From contig NZ_CP108414.1 of NCBI RefSeq assembly GCF_035978755.1, positions 3,534,001 to 3,598,000 on the forward strand: a stretch of DNA of 64,000 bases, in the 5' to 3' direction. Below the pieces are notes generated by a model that saw only the letters and a list, made by a program, of their open reading frames with translations, was not told where the DNA came from and did no database searches. Positions 1,233 to 16,684 of the stretch are shown piece by piece; within the stretch, counting starts at the first letter, position 1, and each line of letters starts with the position of its first letter. The translations under genes and the position numbers were made by a program. This DNA comes from Streptomyces sp. NBC_01298 (GTDB lineage: Bacteria > Actinomycetota > Actinomycetes > Streptomycetales > Streptomycetaceae).

Positions 1233-1676
1233 ATGGGGAACAGGGAGCGGTGGCACGACGGCCCGGGGACGCTCTACGTCGACCGGGGGCGGGCGGGGCG
1301 CCCGGAGGCGCCGGGGCTGCCCGCGGAGGTGCCGGAGGCGCCCGTGGAGGTGCCGGAGGCGCCCGTGGAGGTGCCGGTGGAGGTGGCCGCCTCCTACCGG
1401 GCCCGCACGCGCGGTCTGCTCGGACGGGACGGGATCGAAGGGGCCATGCTCCTCACCCCGGCGTCGAGCGTGCACACCTTCCGGATGCGCTTCGCCATCG
1501 ACGTGGCCCACCTCGACCGCCGGCTCACCGTCATCGCGCTGACCACCATGCCCCCCGGCCGGCTCGGTCTCCCCCGGCTGCGCGCCCGCCACGTCCTGGA
1601 GGCCGAGGCCGGAGCCATGGCCGGCTGGGGGCTGCGCGTCGGGTCCACCCTGCGGGTCCGTCTCACCGCCCGCTAG
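1233..1676 (+). CDS. DUF192 family protein with an N-terminal PEAPVEV repeat
   Basis: A 147-residue protein. The ATG at 1233 is preferred over an in-frame TTG at 1182 because the upstream codons lack family similarity. DUF192 proteins are small beta-rich domains of unknown function. The core here starts near residue 50 (SYRARTRGLLGRDG) and continues with the hallmark MLLTPASSVHTFRMRFAIDV and a C-terminal VLEAEAGAMAGWGLRVG. No signal peptide is evident. Residues about 32-47 carry two tandem copies of a seven-residue EVPEAPV unit, encoded by a 21-bp direct repeat at 1326-1367. It sits alone between two terminator-like hairpins. Function is unknown. Confidence 0.85.
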   Translation: MGNRERWHDGPGTLYVDRGRAGRPEAPGLPAEVPEAPVEVPEAPVEVPVEVAASYRARTRGLLGRDGIEGAMLLTPASSVHTFRMRFAIDVAHLDRRLTVIALTTMPPGRLGLPRLRARHVLEAEAGAMAGWGLRVGSTLRVRLTAR

Positions 1677-1735
1677 GCGCCACCCCGCGCCGGCGGTAGG
1701 TTGGGGCGGTTGAGCTGGGGTGGCAGGGGAGCGGC

Positions 1736-2353
1736 ATGACCGAGAACGCGCGCGTCAAAGCGCTGGAGCAGATCATGCCGGCGACCCACGGGGCCGACGA
1801 GGACATCGACTGGCAGGCGGCCGAGGCCGTCTGGGGCAGCCGGTTCCCCTCCGATTACGTGGCCTTCATGGGCCGCTTCGGCGCGGGCTCGATCAACGGC
1901 GAGGCCAGCGTGCTGCTTCCGCTGCCCAAGCCCGGACTCCAGTGGGATCCGGCACAGATGACGGAGGAGACGGGCAACGCCCGCCAGGTCTGGGAGGCGG
2001 AGGGCGGCCGGGCCGCCTTCGACGTGGACCCGGAGTCGATCCTCGCCTGGGGCGTCACCGGCGGCTCCGACATCCTGTGCTGGCTGACGACCGACCCCGA
2101 CCCCGACCGCTGGCCCGTTCTGGTGGTCGGCCGGCACACCGCCGACTCCTTCGCGGTGTACCCGTACGGCATGGCCGAGTTCCTCTACCTGCTGTGCAAC
2201 GACGAGTTCGACGTGAGCCCGGTCAGCATCACCTTCTGGGACGGCGGCCACCTCAGCTTCGTGCACTGGCAGAAGGCCCAGCGCCGCTGGCAGGAGGGGC
2301 GCAACCCCGAAACGGGCGAGCCCGATCCGTACGCGGGCGACTTCGCGGACTGA
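1736..2353 (+). CDS. SMI1/KNR4 (SUKH) family protein
   Basis: A 205-residue cytosolic protein starting at ATG 1736, with AGGGGAG about 5 bases upstream. The SUKH fold is suggested by WQAAEAVWGSRFPSDYVAFMGRFG near residues 22-42, by LAWGVTGGSDILCW in the middle, and by the aromatic/acidic C-terminal half. SUKH proteins are widespread in Streptomyces, and many are immunity proteins to polymorphic nuclease toxins. No toxin gene adjoins this one, so an orphan immunity or housekeeping role is only inferred. The gene is monocistronic, with a hairpin following it. Confidence 0.8.
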   Translation: MTENARVKALEQIMPATHGADEDIDWQAAEAVWGSRFPSDYVAFMGRFGAGSINGEASVLLPLPKPGLQWDPAQMTEETGNARQVWEAEGGRAAFDVDPESILAWGVTGGSDILCWLTTDPDPDRWPVLVVGRHTADSFAVYPYGMAEFLYLLCNDEFDVSPVSITFWDGGHLSFVHWQKAQRRWQEGRNPETGEPDPYAGDFAD

Positions 2354-2402
2354 GTCCCGCCCGCCCGCACCTCCCCCGCCCGCACCTCCGCTCGCCCCTC
2401 CA

Positions 2403-2442
2403 CGCCCGTTCCGCCGCGCTCCCTGGCCGGGAACGGGCGTTT
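2403..2442 (+). terminator. Hairpin terminator after the SUKH gene
   Basis: Ten-bp perfect arms CGCCCGTTCC and GGAACGGGCG, followed by TTTCG, lie 50 bases after the SUKH stop. The remaining bases up to 2657 are unusually AT-rich for this genome and probably hold the promoter and leader of the solute-binding protein gene. I see no confident -35/-10 pair. Confidence 0.75.
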
Positions 2443-2657
2443 CGGCATGTCTACGCGCGTCCGAATTGTTGATCACATATCGGAAAACACCATTCTGAAA
2501 TGCCGCAGTTGGAGCATTGACCACAAGTGCCGACCCAATGGAACCAACCGCCCTTCCGCAGGAGAGAATTCCGGCCAACGGGCCATGGAGGGACACCGAG
2601 CCCGGAGTAACTCATAAGTAATAACGCGACTCAAAAGAAAATCAGGGGAACCCCACC

Positions 2658-3971
2658 GTGCGACGAAGAATCTTCAGCGCGGCCGCCACCACGGTCGTGC
2701 TCGGTCTGCTGATACCGCTGGCCGGCTGCGGCGGCCCCGGCGGAAGCGCTGATGACGACGGCACCCTCCGCCTCGTCGCCGCCGAATACGGCGACACCTC
2801 GACCAACAGTTCCAAGGATTTCTGGGACAAGGTGACGGACGATTTCACCGCCTCGAACCCCGGCATCAAGGTCCAGGTCGAGCTCCTGCCGTGGGCCGAC
2901 ATCGACCGTGAAGTCTCGCGCATGGTCAAGGCCGGCAACGCCCCGGACATGGCCCTCATGGGCGGCTACTCGGACTTCGCGGCGCAGGGGAAGCTCTATT
3001 CCGCGCCCGAGCTCCTCTCGGTCAGCGCCGAGGCGAACTTCCTCCAGCCCCTCGCCGACGCCGGCTCCGTCCGCAACACCCTCTACGGCCTGCCCTTCGT
3101 GGCGAGCAGCCGTCTCCTCTTCTACAACGAGAAGCTGTTCACCGACGCCGGGATCATCCCGAAGGACTCCAAGAACGGCTGGCAGCCCAAGACCTGGCTG
3201 GACCTGAAGGCCGCGGCCGTGGCGCTCAAGGCCGAGGGCGTGAAGACGCCGTTCGCCCTGCCCCTGGGCCCGGAAGAGGCGCACGCCGAGGCGATGATCT
3301 GGGAGCTCAGCAACGGCGGCGGCTACGCCGACAACAGCGGCAACTACAGCCTGGCCTCCGAGCAGAACATCATGACCTTCAAGTGGATCAAGCAGCACCT
3401 GGTCGCCCCCGGGCTGCTCGGTCCCACTCCCCCGTCCCAGCTCAACCGCGCCGACGCCTTCGCCGCCTTCGTGAACGGCGAGGTCGGCATGCTCAACGGC
3501 TACCCCCAGCTCGCCCACGAGGCGCGCAACAAGGGGATCAAGGTCGGCGCCGTCGCCATGCCCGTCTCGGACACGCTGAACACCGGACAGGTCCCGCCGA
3601 ACGTGGGCGTGGCCGACTGGATGATGGCCTTCAAGCAGAACGGCCACCGCGCCGAGATCGGCAAGTTCCTGGACTTCGTCTACCGGGACAAGAACCTGTC
3701 GGACTTCGCCGGCCGCTACCACCTGCTGCCGTCCACCGTCTCGGCCTCCCGCACCATGGCCGGCTCCTCGGGCATGGACGAGAACGACCAGCAGTTCCTG
3801 AACGCCCTGCGCGGTGCGCAGCTCTACCCGGTCAACGACCCGTCCTGGGTGATCATCAGCGACACCATCAAGCGCAACATCGGCCGCGCCGTGGACCCCT
3901 CCGGCGACCCGAAGGCCGTCCTGGAGGAGATCGCCGCCAAGGCGAACGAGGCCAAGAAGGCGGCGCGCTGA
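2658..3971 (+). CDS. Sugar ABC transporter substrate-binding lipoprotein (orphan)
   Basis: A 437-residue extracellular solute-binding protein of family 1, starting at GTG 2658 with AGGGGAA about 9 bases upstream. The N-terminus is a lipoprotein signal: MRRRIF, a hydrophobic stretch, then the lipobox LAGC with Cys24. The mature part has the family pattern FWDKVTDDFTASNPGIKVQVE, then AGNAPDMALMGGYSD, then YGLPFVASSRLLFYNEKLF. It should capture a sugar or oligosaccharide outside the membrane for an ABC importer. No permease or ATPase gene lies on either side, so it must work with components encoded elsewhere. The ligand is unknown. Confidence 0.9.
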   Translation: MRRRIFSAAATTVVLGLLIPLAGCGGPGGSADDDGTLRLVAAEYGDTSTNSSKDFWDKVTDDFTASNPGIKVQVELLPWADIDREVSRMVKAGNAPDMALMGGYSDFAAQGKLYSAPELLSVSAEANFLQPLADAGSVRNTLYGLPFVASSRLLFYNEKLFTDAGIIPKDSKNGWQPKTWLDLKAAAVALKAEGVKTPFALPLGPEEAHAEAMIWELSNGGGYADNSGNYSLASEQNIMTFKWIKQHLVAPGLLGPTPPSQLNRADAFAAFVNGEVGMLNGYPQLAHEARNKGIKVGAVAMPVSDTLNTGQVPPNVGVADWMMAFKQNGHRAEIGKFLDFVYRDKNLSDFAGRYHLLPSTVSASRTMAGSSGMDENDQQFLNALRGAQLYPVNDPSWVIISDTIKRNIGRAVDPSGDPKAVLEEIAAKANEAKKAAR

Positions 3972-4222: not shown

Positions 4223-4846
4223 TCAGCTCGCGCCCTGATTCTTCGGCGTGAACGCCACGCGGTACTGCTCGCAGCTGGAGTCCCACGGCAGGGACCCGGT
4301 GAGAGTGCCGTAGCCGGTGCGGGTGACCGACCACTCCACCGTGTAAGTCCCGGTGTCGCACTTGATGCGCTTGCCGCCCGGGACCTTCGTACGGCCCGTC
4401 GCGGGCCGGTTCTTGAGCTCCTGGTGCACCTGGGCCACCTCGGCGCGCCGGGCGTCGCGCAGGACCGCGTGCAGGACGAGCACCTGCTTGCCGTCCTTCG
4501 TCGTCAGCACCTTCTTGACCCCCTGCGAATCCGCCACCGACCACGCGAACTCGTAGCCGGGCTCCCAGGCCAGGGTCTTGGGATCGCCGATCTTGCGCTC
4601 GTACTCCTCGGCGCCCTTGGGGCCGGGGCGGGTGATCGTCTTGTACTGGACCGACGGGTGGAAGCGGAACTGCGCCTCCACCTTGTGCATGTCGTCCTTG
4701 GTCCACATCGACTTCATCGACTTCTCCCCGCCGCTCGGATCCTGGAGGTACGTGCCCTCCGCGGCGGTGGCCGCGCCCGAGAGGGCCGGGGCGAGGGCCG
4801 CCGCGGCGGCGGCGAGGACGAGGGCGGCGGTGCGGGTGCGGTTCAT
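4223..4846 (-). CDS. Secreted protein of unknown function
   Basis: A 207-residue protein with a clear Sec signal peptide: MNRTRTA, a poly-Ala hydrophobic core, and a cleavage region near ATAAEG around residue 29. The mature part is charged and basic-rich, with KSMKSMWTKDDMHKVEAQ, and two cysteines late in the chain (KCDTGTY and DSSCEQY) that could form a disulfide. I do not recognise the family. It is convergent with the solute-binding protein gene and lies 92 bases upstream of the deacetylase stop on the same strand. Co-transcription is possible but not shown. Confidence 0.75.
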   Translation of the reverse strand: MNRTRTAALVLAAAAAALAPALSGAATAAEGTYLQDPSGGEKSMKSMWTKDDMHKVEAQFRFHPSVQYKTITRPGPKGAEEYERKIGDPKTLAWEPGYEFAWSVADSQGVKKVLTTKDGKQVLVLHAVLRDARRAEVAQVHQELKNRPATGRTKVPGGKRIKCDTGTYTVEWSVTRTGYGTLTGSLPWDSSCEQYRVAFTPKNQGAS

Positions 4847-4938
4847 GCCCGGACCAACGGGACCCTCCGGCGGGCCGGAACGACGCCGGGCGCCCTTTCA
4901 CCCGTACGGGATCCGGCCGGACGGTGGTGGACCGCGCG

Positions 4939-5778
4939 TCAGGCGCTGGGGCCGGTGACCACCGGGAAGCCGGTGGGCCGGCCCTGCTCCTTCAGCCAGG
5001 CGAGGACCTGGTCGAGGGCCGCGACGCTCTGGGTGCGGTCGCCGCCGCCGTCGTGGAAGAGGATGGTCGGGCCGTTGCCGATCTCGGCCTTGACGGTGCC
5101 CACGATCGCGGCGACGCCGGGCTTGCTGAAGTCCTTGGTGTCGATGTTCCAGCCGAGCGGGCGCATGCCGTTGGCTGCCGCCAGGGCCCGGCTCTCGGGG
5201 GTGAACGCGCCGCCGGGGGCCCGGTAGTACTCCACCTTGGCCCCGCCCGCGGCTTCCTCGATCTGCTTCTTCGCGACGAGGATCTGCTGCCGCTGATAGG
5301 CGAGGGGCTTCCTGTCCATCCCCGTGTCGTGGTCCGTGGTGTGGTCGCAGAGCCGGTGCCCGTCGGCGACGACCTTCTTGACCAGGTCGGGGTGGTCCTT
5401 GGCCTGCGGTCCGATCATGCAGAAGACCGCCTTCACGTCGTACTTCTTCAGCACATCCAGCACCTTCGGGGTCCACTTGGGGTCGGGCCCGTCGTCGATG
5501 GTGATGTTGACCGCGTCGCCGCCGCTCTCCGACGCGTGCGCTATGCCGTCCGGGACCCGCCCGCCCGGCTCCCCGGGGGCCTGGGGCTCGCCGTCGCCGC
5601 CCTTGGCGGGGTCGTCGGTCTGCCGGGAAACGTGTCGGTGGTTGATCTCGTGCCCCGGGTCGACGACCGCCGTCACTCCCCAGGCGGTCGCGGCCACCGC
5701 CGCCACCGCCGCGGCGACGGCGATCCGTGCCTTCGTCCCCTGCATCCGCCGCATCCGCGTGCGCGCCATGAACCCCAT
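4939..5778 (-). CDS. Polysaccharide deacetylase (NodB/CE4 family), membrane-anchored or secreted
   Basis: A 279-residue protein starting at ATG 5778. A longer frame exists, but its extra N-terminus has no secretion signal and looks non-coding. After MGFMARTRMRRMQ comes a single hydrophobic segment (residues about 17-37) acting as signal or anchor. All five CE4 motifs are readable: TIDDGPDP, the metal-binding DHTTDHDTG, RAPGG, WNIDTKDF and ILFHDGGGDR. The enzyme should remove N-acetyl groups from a wall or matrix glycan such as peptidoglycan or chitin oligomers, using a divalent metal. A DevR/DosR-like box lies about 110 bases upstream. Confidence 0.93.
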   Translation of the reverse strand: MGFMARTRMRRMQGTKARIAVAAAVAAVAATAWGVTAVVDPGHEINHRHVSRQTDDPAKGGDGEPQAPGEPGGRVPDGIAHASESGGDAVNITIDDGPDPKWTPKVLDVLKKYDVKAVFCMIGPQAKDHPDLVKKVVADGHRLCDHTTDHDTGMDRKPLAYQRQQILVAKKQIEEAAGGAKVEYYRAPGGAFTPESRALAAANGMRPLGWNIDTKDFSKPGVAAIVGTVKAEIGNGPTILFHDGGGDRTQSVAALDQVLAWLKEQGRPTGFPVVTGPSA

Positions 5779-13797: not shown

Positions 13798-14358
13798 ATG
13801 CCCGCCAACCCCGCCCCGATGACCGACGAAGAGGCCCGCGCGCGCCTGCTGGACGCCGCGGAGGCACTGTTCTACGCCGAGGGGATCCAGGCCGTGGGCA
13901 TGGACCGCATCCGCGCGGAGTCGGGCATCCCCCTCAAGCGGCTCTACCGCCTCTACCCGGCCAAGGAATCCCTGGTCACCGCCTACCTGGAGCGCCGGGA
14001 CCGCCGTTGGATGGCGAGCCTGAGCGCAGCGGTCGCGGGGCGGGCCGACCCCGTCGGGGCCGTCTTCGAGTGGCTCGCGGGGTGGTTCTCGGAGCCGGAC
14101 TTCCGGGGGTGCGCGTTCCTGAACGCCTACGGGGAGCTGGGCGCGGGCCCCGCCGGGGTGCTGGACGTCGTACGCCGGCACAAGGCGGAGCTACGGGCGC
14201 TGCTGGCCGGCATCGCCGGTCCCGGCCGGGAAGGCCTGGCGGAGCACCTGCTGCTACTGGTCGAGGGGGCGACGGTGGTGGCGGCACTGGAACCGGGCCC
14301 GGGGGCGGCGGTGCGGGCGCGCGAGGCGGCGTACGTCCTGGTCCGCGACGGCGGCTGA
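13798..14358 (+). CDS. TetR family regulator of the divergent NTF2-like gene
   Basis: A 186-residue protein from ATG 13798. The helix-turn-helix covers residues about 13-57 ([20 protein letters not shown], then [15 protein letters not shown]). The C-terminal domain contains [19 protein letters not shown], typical of TetR proteins controlling stress or redox genes. It should bind the two GAGAACG palindromes just upstream, repressing itself and the NTF2-like gene. Confidence 0.92.
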
Positions 14359-14531
14359 GGCGACAGCCGGGGAAACGTGATTCACGCGGCTGCCGAGTGA
14401 TCGGTTACGCGTCGTACACAACTGAGTCGCATTGTCAGCTTTTAACTGGTGTTGGAACTTTTGTCCACCGGAAGACCGCATTCGGCGGTCGCCCTCCGGT
14501 TCCGTCGCCTTTCCTCGCGGAGGAAACACCC

Positions 14532-16091
14532 TTGTCTGCTTCCCGCTGCACGTCGGCCGCCCTGGTCGTCGCGGCCGTCACCGCGAGCTGCCTGCTGCCG
14601 GCCGTGCCGGCTTTCGCCGCCGGCTCGCCGCACATCCGGTTCTCCCAGCCGTACGTCCCCTCGATCGCCGCCGGCAAGACCGGCCGCGTGGTGATCGTGG
14701 CGGAGACCGACGGCGAATCGGCACTCAGCAGCAGATTCCGGATCACCGCGCCGGAGCGGACGACCTTCCCCGAGGCCCGCTTCTACTGGAACGGCGACCG
14801 TGCGGGCGCACCCTGCACCCTCTCGGGCAACGCCCGCCAGCTGACCTGCGACGCGGGCACCCGCGCGGGCTTCGCCTTCCCGGCGGAGAGCGACACCCGG
14901 CTGGGCGTACTCGTACGGGTGGACGCGGACGCTCCCGAGGGCACGACGCTCGACGGCGGCGAGTGGGCGGCCGGAGCGGGCTCCTCGCCCGCCCTGTACG
15001 CGGTGTCCACCCCGGTGACGGGCCCCAAGGGCGACGACGGGCACGACGGACACGACGGGCACGAGGGGAAGCCGGGCCACGACGGAAAGCCCGGTGACCA
15101 CGGCAAGCCGGGCCGCCCCGGCCCCAAGGGCGACAAGGGTGACCAGGGCGAGCGGGGCGAGAAGGGCGACCGCGGGGACCGCGGCGATCGCGGGGAGAAG
15201 GGGGACCGCGGAGAGAAGGGCGACCGCGGGCCGAAGGGTCCCCAGGGCCCCAAGGGCCACCAGGGTCCCAAGGGCGACACCGGCCCCGCGGGTCCGAAGG
15301 GCGACCAGGGACCGGCCGGAGGCCCCCAGGGACCGAAGGGCGACACCGGGGCAGCCGGCCCGAAGGGCGACACGGGCCCGGCGGGCGGACCGAAGGGCGA
15401 CACCGGCCCGGCCGGCCCGAAGGGCGACGCGGGCACCACGGGCCAGACCGGTCCGACGGGACCGGCCGGCGTACCCGGACCGGGCGGACTCCAGGGCCCC
15501 AAGGGCGACACCGGCCCGGCCGGCGGACCCAAGGGCGACAAGGGTGACAAGGGCGACCGCGGCGACCGCGGCCCGGCCGGACCGACGGGAACGCGCGGAC
15601 CGGGCGGACCGAAGGGCGAGCAGGGCCCGACCGGCCCGAAGGGCGACCGCGGGCGCGACGGAGCCAAGGGCGAGCAGGGCCGCAAGGGAGACCGCGGACC
15701 GATCGGACCCAAGGGCGAGCAGGGCCGCAAGGGAGACCAGGGTCCGCAGGGCCCCAAGGGCCCGAAGGGCGACCAGGGCAAGCCCGGCGCGTGCAAGTGC
15801 GGCAAGGACCACGGCGGTAAGGACCACGGTGGCAAGGACCACGGCGGCAAGGGCGACAAGCCCGGCAAGCCGAAGGCCCGCATCGTCAGCGACAAGCTGC
15901 ACGTCCGCACCGGCCCCGGCACCCAGTACAAGAAGACCGGCGTGATCAAGTACGGCACCGAGGTCCAGGTGCTGTGCAAGACCAACGGCACCGAGGTCGA
16001 CGGCAACACCATTTGGTACAAGCTCGCCGACGGCCGCGGCTGGATCGCCGCCCGCTACGCCGCGAACCTGAACCGCATCCCCACCTGCTGA
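14532..16091 (+). CDS. Secreted collagen-like protein with C-terminal SH3b domain
   Basis: TTG 14532 is chosen because CGGAGGAAA precedes it and the signal peptide begins there; the upstream frame is unrelated. It encodes 519 residues: signal peptide (to about AFAAG), a beta-rich head (30-160, two Cys), a collagen region (164-420, roughly 85 G-X-Y triplets rich in GPKGD, GDRG and GEKG, with a few register breaks such as GPAGGP), a GKDHG linker repeated three times after CKC, and a bacterial SH3 domain (about 449-515; [21 protein letters not shown]). It should form an extracellular triple helix bound to the wall or matrix through SH3b. Proline hydroxylation is not expected. Substrate or partner is unknown. 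Confidence 0.9.
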
Positions 16092-16333: not shown

Positions 16334-16684
16334 ATGACCCCCCTGCCCCGCACCCGCCGCCGTCTCGCCGTCCTCACGGCCTCGGCCGCCCTGGCCACAG
16401 CAGGCGCACTGCTGTCCTCCGGCGCGTCCGCCGCGCCGGCCACCCCTCGTGACGCCACCGCGGTGGCACCCGCCCACAGCGGTGACAGCGGTGACGGCGA
16501 TCACGATCACCACGATCACGGCATCAGCTACTGCCACTGGCACGGGCTGGCCCAGAACAAGCGCCACCATCACGGCTGGAGCTGGGGCTGGTGGCACTGC
16601 CACGGCAAGGGCCACGAGAAGGGGACCTGGAAGGACCGCGACGCCGACGGGTGGCTGAAGAGCGACCGCGTCTACCGCACCTGA
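16334..16684 (+). CDS. Small secreted histidine- and tryptophan-rich protein
   Basis: A 116-residue protein from ATG 16334 with GGAGGTGA upstream. A Sec signal peptide ends near SGASAAP (residue about 35). The mature chain has HSGDSGDGDHDHHDHG, then YCHWHG, RHHHGWSWGWWHCHGKGHEK and a charged tail. With about 13 His, 2 Cys and 5-6 Trp, it could bind Zn, Cu or Ni outside the cell, or could mediate matrix contacts. No known family is recognised. It follows the collagen-like gene but is separated from it by a terminator, so it is an independent unit. Confidence 0.75.
   Translation: MTPLPRTRRRLAVLTASAALATAGALLSSGASAAPATPRDATAVAPAHSGDSGDGDHDHHDHGISYCHWHGLAQNKRHHHGWSWGWWHCHGKGHEKGTWKDRDADGWLKSDRVYRT

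Follow-up and report, generated by a model that had tools for sequence, protein, structure and literature searches.

How a bacterium might build a collagen from one gene, keep its chains in register and hold them at the cell wall is the question raised by a gene in a 64,000-nt stretch of the genome of Streptomyces sp. NBC_01298 (NZ_CP108414.1, positions 3,534,001-3,598,000), which is the window analyzed here. The gene lies on the forward strand at 14532..16091, starts with TTG and encodes 519 residues, and both the open reading frame list and the translation bear out the coordinates, start, length and domain order given in the initial annotation. A ribosome-binding site, GGAGGAA, is read just upstream (14519..14525, forward strand), and the TTG start is supported because GGAGGA occurs no more than 20 nt from the start codon in 19/19 sequences, those of the window gene and all 18 related loci. 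The start codons of these 18 loci (L070-L087) are TTG in 14 and GTG in four with no ATG, as if weak initiation had been kept behind a strong ribosome site. The GC content at codon positions one, two and three of the gene frame is 0.73, 0.62 and 0.91, respectively, and by this measure 14532..16091 is coding. Two other long frames, one of 694 residues at 14007..16091 and an antisense frame of 591 residues, were taken as by-products of the GC-rich sequence.

The encoded protein comprises, in order, a signal peptide, a beta-rich head, a Gly-X-Y domain, a Cys-Lys-Cys sequence, three GKDHG units and an SH3_3 domain, all of which are given here in forward-strand coordinates. Residues 1-29 (14532..14618) resemble a signal peptide, with cleavage, as judged by eye, probably after AFA, and the head follows in residues 30-163 (14619..15020). 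The collagen domain, residues 164-421 (15021..15794), was delimited by Pfam and by a count of the register; it contains 84 Gly-X-Y triplets and a terminal Gly-Ala-Cys, close to the "about 85" triplets first estimated, and the run boundaries place three one-residue breaks within it, at extra residues 266 (15327..15329), 288 (15393..15395) and 334 (15531..15533). Family comparison defines a junction pair, Cys421-Lys-Cys423 (15792..15800), which closes the collagen on its C-terminal side, and the translation then gives a His/Lys-rich linker that carries the three GKDHG units (residues 424-454, 15801..15893), followed by the SH3_3 domain and a C-terminal tail (residues 455-519, 15894..16088; Pfam match 456-509). 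Both Collagen (PF01391, 118.3 bits, cut-off 27.2) and SH3_3 (PF08239, 48.6 bits, cut-off 27) are over their curated cut-offs, while nothing else in Pfam matches the protein at E values up to 1, and no catalytic domain from Pfam or NCBIfam is above cut-off. The signal peptide-like N-terminus and the Collagen score support the original reading of a secreted bacterial collagen. The threefold GKDHG repeat that had also been pointed out is real in the window protein, but the linker between junction pair and SH3 domain varies in both length and make-up among its relatives.

The order of head, collagen, linker and SH3 domain had been described in the initial annotation as unfamiliar, and this holds in the sense that the libraries and papers searched contained no characterized family with the same architecture, but the protein is no one-off. 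Its family comprises 62 rows, each a protein cluster at 90% identity, of which 47 came from the head search, seven more from a free head and seven from the tail, with the window's own as the remaining one; the tail search also brought two unrelated SH3 proteins that were left outside the family. Completeness was set by a motif that does not include cysteine, and 54/62 rows are complete. None of the eight incomplete rows (P0027 and P0049-P0055) has the SH3 domain; the source flags several of them as partial, and P0054 retains the Cys pair after a collagen remnant of six triplets. Low complexity alone is an insufficient explanation because head, collagen, Cys pair and SH3 domain co-occur in 54/54 complete rows. 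The family rows are mostly annotated as SH3 domain-containing or hypothetical, and the organism is Streptomyces in every row where one is stated. The same is true of 18 loci from named genomes, which overlap partly with the 54 complete rows (one locus runs off its contig) and whose hosts include S. lavendulae, S. xanthophaeus, S. katrae, S. bambusae, S. amritsarensis and S. yangpuensis. The gene is present in 10/295 genomes of the genus, its own included, and hence it is no core component of the wall. Our search of the literature on Streptomyces and actinomycete collagens and on cystine knots, with subscription journals largely outside its scope, found no published description of a head-collagen-SH3 family.

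Remote relatives of the head occur beyond the genus. The head profile matched 5/121 genomes at the family level, own included, with two of these in other genera, and 10/293 at the order level, own included, with one in another family. The match from another genus, G354, has head and collagen before the frame is lost, with neither Cys pair nor SH3 domain in the stretch read, and the match from another family, G297, is broken inside the head, although its downstream frame reads collagen and then SH3 without the Cys pair. A protein from another genus (G408; L099, 991-2184, minus strand) fuses a distant head with a ricin-type lectin domain, hinting that the head may be a reusable secreted module.

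The cysteine pattern is highly regular across the family. After residue 35 there are exactly six Cys in 54/54 complete rows, two in the head, two at the junction and two in the SH3 domain. The two head Cys are spaced by 11 in 61/61 rows that have both and the two SH3 Cys by 37 in 52/52 rows; in the window protein Cys95 is probably paired with Cys106 and Cys482 with Cys519. All 54 complete rows have the junction pair where the collagen ends C-terminally, 33 of them as CxC and 21 as CxxC, and in 51/54 the first Cys of the pair takes the Y position of the final in-register triplet, so that two cysteines per chain stand at the helix end, as in cystine-knotted collagens. Unlike this constant pair, the collagen ranges from 12 to 84 triplets across the 54 complete rows, and the residues that separate the junction from the first Cys of the SH3 domain number 43 to 78 among the relatives. 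The CKC motif had been listed at the outset and little used, yet with the pair fixed in this way it is the most telling part of the protein. The named loci that are complete with collagen have the pair in 15/16 cases. The exception, L079, keeps 65+5 triplets after losing it, and the junction pair is thus not indispensable. Conversely, L087 (apparently the same gene as L097) has head and SH3 domain with almost no collagen, is otherwise complete, and lacks the junction pair and nothing else. These two relatives, one without the cysteines and one without the collagen, provide natural controls for the role of the junction pair.

What such a pair could do is constrained by the geometry of the triple helix. 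According to a recent review (PMC13138384), Cys inside the helix usually cannot bond to each other, the exception being a Y-site and an X-site Cys on staggered chains, for which a helix border is helpful; two Y-site Cys are too far apart within the helix, and Cys in a helix mostly form bonds with other molecules or undergo oxidation. The two Cys of the GxC-K-C arrangement fall on Y and on the would-be next X, at the helix border. This Y/X argument applies to the 33 rows with CxC alone, as the second Cys of the 21 CxxC rows is on a Y-like place, and for these the case for a disulfide rests on flexibility of the chain beyond the border.

Border cysteines are also seen in other Streptomyces collagens. 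Among the six collagens of the NBC_01298 genome that have a run of at least 25 triplets and were inspected, four carry border Cys, namely the window protein, L023 and one of the two L025 proteins, both of which end in GPC, and the second L025 protein, whose Cys lies immediately beyond the helix. Of the remaining two, L024 has no Cys and L022 has only those of its SH3-type domain. Both collagen borders carry Cys in four secreted-looking proteins, L023 (600-2333, minus strand), L058 (499-2217, minus strand) and the two L025 proteins (1519-3021 and 4369-5349, plus strand), and the collagen ends in GPC in three of these four. Other collagens seen alongside have different partners. The protein of L057 (622-2679, minus strand) combines an ice-binding-like domain (PF11999) with 84 collagen triplets, a stretch rich in His and Asp and a hydrophobic segment at the C-terminus. 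Several Streptomyces proteins (L045-L047, L051, L052, L054, L062-L065, L068 and L069) have runs of GNP or similar triplets and an L-A-x-T-G-like C-terminus; they pass the Collagen model and presumably resemble long chaplins.

The composition of the collagen domain would suit a helix stabilized by charge. The initial annotation had stressed its charged triplets, and their placement does yield Lys(Y)-Gly-Asp/Glu(X) steps in excess, with 598 observed against 236.6 expected from triplet shuffling over 54 rows (about 2.5-fold), and 49/54 rows exceed all 300 of their own shuffles. The window protein has 21 such steps against 8.4 expected, and Pro at Y is rare (9/84). In bacterial collagens, according to PMC13138384, it is ionic and polar contacts that become the main stabilizing factor. 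Register breaks occur in 52/54 complete rows, and 79/84 of them add one residue modulo three, a count that includes the out-of-register ends of three proteins. The single added residue is often Gly, in GPxG-GPKGD.

The SH3 domain matches the PDB entries 8b2h, 8b2g, 8b2f and 8b2s over the whole domain with E values of 2.6e-10 to 3.3e-6, the best of which is to 8b2h (2.6e-10). These are SH3-like wall-binding domains of fungal muramidases, for which a complex with triglycine suggests rather than proves binding to the peptide bridge, in an account that is partly hypothesis (PMC10394673). The call of an SH3-type domain is upheld by these homologs, in that its nearest solved relatives are wall-binding modules. 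None of the family rows examined has L[AP]xTG near the C-terminus, and neither a covalent anchor nor a membrane segment is seen in the collagen-SH3 protein. An SH3-type domain also precedes the collagen in a protein of the same genome (L022, 1458-4352, plus strand), where it is followed by 37+110+57 triplets and another C-terminal domain, and in one from another Streptomyces (L056, 1180-2130, minus strand); SH3_3 is below the Pfam cut-off in both. With this N-terminal SH3-type domain in L022 and L056, rod and SH3 domain occur together in both orders.

The head is predicted to be an Ig-like beta sandwich. The model, built from an alignment of 41 rows, is all beta (mean pLDDT 80.4, pTM 0.76), and in Foldseek and VIA-align comparisons Ig-like sandwiches come out as its matches, many of them tied. 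No curated family in the profile libraries searched, Pfam included, reaches its cut-off on the head. The integrin alpha Ig-like domain 2 (PF20805) gives 12.4 bits for the window head against a cut-off of 24, and weak matches to it occur in 7/19 members (best E value 0.0014). The head, which had been called novel-looking, keeps that description after these structure and profile searches.

The gene looks independently regulated. A comparison and alignment of 19 upstream regions revealed two conserved blocks, GAGTGA...CGCGT and TAACTGG (14395..14449, forward strand), that form a probable promoter or operator. CG[AG]GTGA is present in 19/19 regions and TAACTG in 17/19, the spacing between them is 47 or 48 nt in 17/17 regions with both, and the spaced pattern occurs only once in the whole genome. 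The blocks travel with the gene although its neighbors change: the upstream TetR and DUF1348 genes are common to 7/9 loci of one set of relatives and present in 5/18 loci of the named genomes, and those S. lavendulae-type and S. bambusae-type loci that were read have the gene in other genomic surroundings. Downstream in the window, 16334-16684 (plus strand) encodes a small His- and Trp-rich, secreted-looking protein that has no match in Pfam or NCBIfam and partial counterparts in 2/9 relative loci.

We propose that the protein is a secreted, homotrimeric, wall-anchored collagen stalk with chains tied by disulfides at its base and Ig-like heads on display, a reading that we consider to have an even chance of being correct. 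Each chain would be exported by means of its signal peptide, and three chains would wind into a triple helix of some 84 triplets, which at a helix rise of 0.286 nm per residue would span about 72 nm. Lys-Gly-Asp/Glu steps would help the helix in place of hydroxyproline, and interchain disulfides formed by the CxC/CxxC pair where the chains leave the helix would hold the three in register. The three SH3 domains could then bind peptidoglycan jointly as a multivalent, non-covalent anchor that replaces a sortase signal, and the rod would carry three Ig-like heads beyond the wall, where their partner would most likely be a surface or matrix ligand. The wider idea, for which we put the chances slightly short of even, is that bacteria have here a natural collagen whose triple helix is closed at its foot by a dedicated interchain cystine knot, one that arose independently of the animal knots and that gives a registered, wall-anchored trimer from one gene with no known globular trimerization domain and no hydroxyproline. 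If so, it would represent an additional means of fixing collagen to a bacterial wall, and a collagen that sets its own register without hydroxyproline would be of use for materials.

The cysteines are also open to a metal-based reading. On this view zinc, copper or nickel would be bound by the Cys pair together with the stretches rich in His at either end of the collagen, and the stalk would store or sense the metal or be cross-linked by it. A CxxC followed by His resembles metal knuckles, a His lies within 12 residues after the pair in 52/54 complete rows, at least one His is found in the first 12 triplets in 59/59 rows examined (two or more in 54), and the secreted-looking protein encoded at 16334-16684 is His-rich. 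Against this, the pair keeps its place where the helix ends whereas both the number and the position of the His change, CxC in some rows is replaced by CxxC in others, two of the 54 rows have no His within those 12 residues, and the location would be oxidizing, with the other four Cys having the look of ordinary disulfides. We regard the metal reading as fairly unlikely, although a metal site and a disulfide tie could both hold at once. That the Gly-X-Y region is an extended, soluble, single-chain spacer with no triple helix is quite improbable: the paucity of Pro at Y, the breaks in nearly all rows, the large variation in length and the collagen-less relative L087 would all suit it, but Gly at every third residue over 12 to 84 triplets, breaks that so regularly add one residue modulo three and charge steps at 2.5 times expectation would be needless in a plain spacer and disfavor it, as does the major stabilizing role ascribed to ionic and polar contacts in bacterial collagens by PMC13138384.

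The remaining alternatives concern where the protein is held. The SH3 domain might not anchor it to the wall of its own cell, the protein being shed, binding other bacteria or building a matrix between hyphae. According to PMC10394673, the best-studied wall modules of the SH3 type, those of the fungal muramidases and of staphylococcal endopeptidases, do target the wall of another organism, and the collagen-SH3 protein shows neither covalent anchor nor membrane segment. The lack of any catalytic domain above cut-off argues the other way, and a rod fused to a wall module would seem better suited to display than to attack, such that we think retention on the producing cell the better account and its alternative unlikely. 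A lipoprotein attached through a Cys in the signal peptide, with the head at the membrane and the rod crossing the wall, is highly improbable. Such a Cys is present in 53/62 rows, but all 53 read TAxC and nine rows are without it, a cleavage site of the PA[FLAV]A[AD] type follows in 51/62, and the canonical lipobox, [LVI][ASTVI][GAS]C, is found in 0/62.

The disulfide-tied, wall-anchored stalk has partial parallels in several known systems. The knot motif of type III collagen is GPCCGG. In animal collagens III (for which PMC13138384 cites work on a knot peptide) and IV (PMC10404678), as in the window protein, each chain has two Cys where the helix ends or is interrupted, and the knot of type IV collagen is described in PMC10404678 as three interchain bonds within such an interruption. 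We claim no homology to the animal collagens beyond Gly-X-Y, the Cys spacing differs, and the disulfides of the window protein are putative. The fungal GH24 and GH184 muramidases have their SH3 module on enzymes, whereas that of the window protein is on a collagen rod and Cys519 lies beyond the match. GsmA, a wall hydrolase of sporangiospore maturation, is matched in the SH3 region only (35 bits, cut-off 240), and the window protein is without a hydrolase domain. The L022 and L056 proteins are alike in having both an SH3-type domain and collagen, but the order is reversed, the terminal domain is another one and there is no CxC/CxxC at the collagen border. The collagen repeat of the Legionella adhesin Lcl is also similar (NCBIfam, 157 bits, where the cut-off is 500), and the ends of that protein are different. 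Similar in overall plan are the streptococcal Scl proteins, in which an N-terminal head and a charged, hydroxyproline-free collagen rod lead to a C-terminal wall attachment. The NCBIfam models for Scl1 and Scl2 (SclA and SclB) match the window protein through its collagen part at 115.9 and 115.8 bits, well below the cut-offs of 325 and 400 that define those families, and compared with them it is without a sortase signal and has a predicted beta head, an SH3 anchor and a conserved junction Cys pair. The stalk falls outside the Scl family by these criteria, but in action it would resemble an Scl adhesin that is anchored non-covalently.
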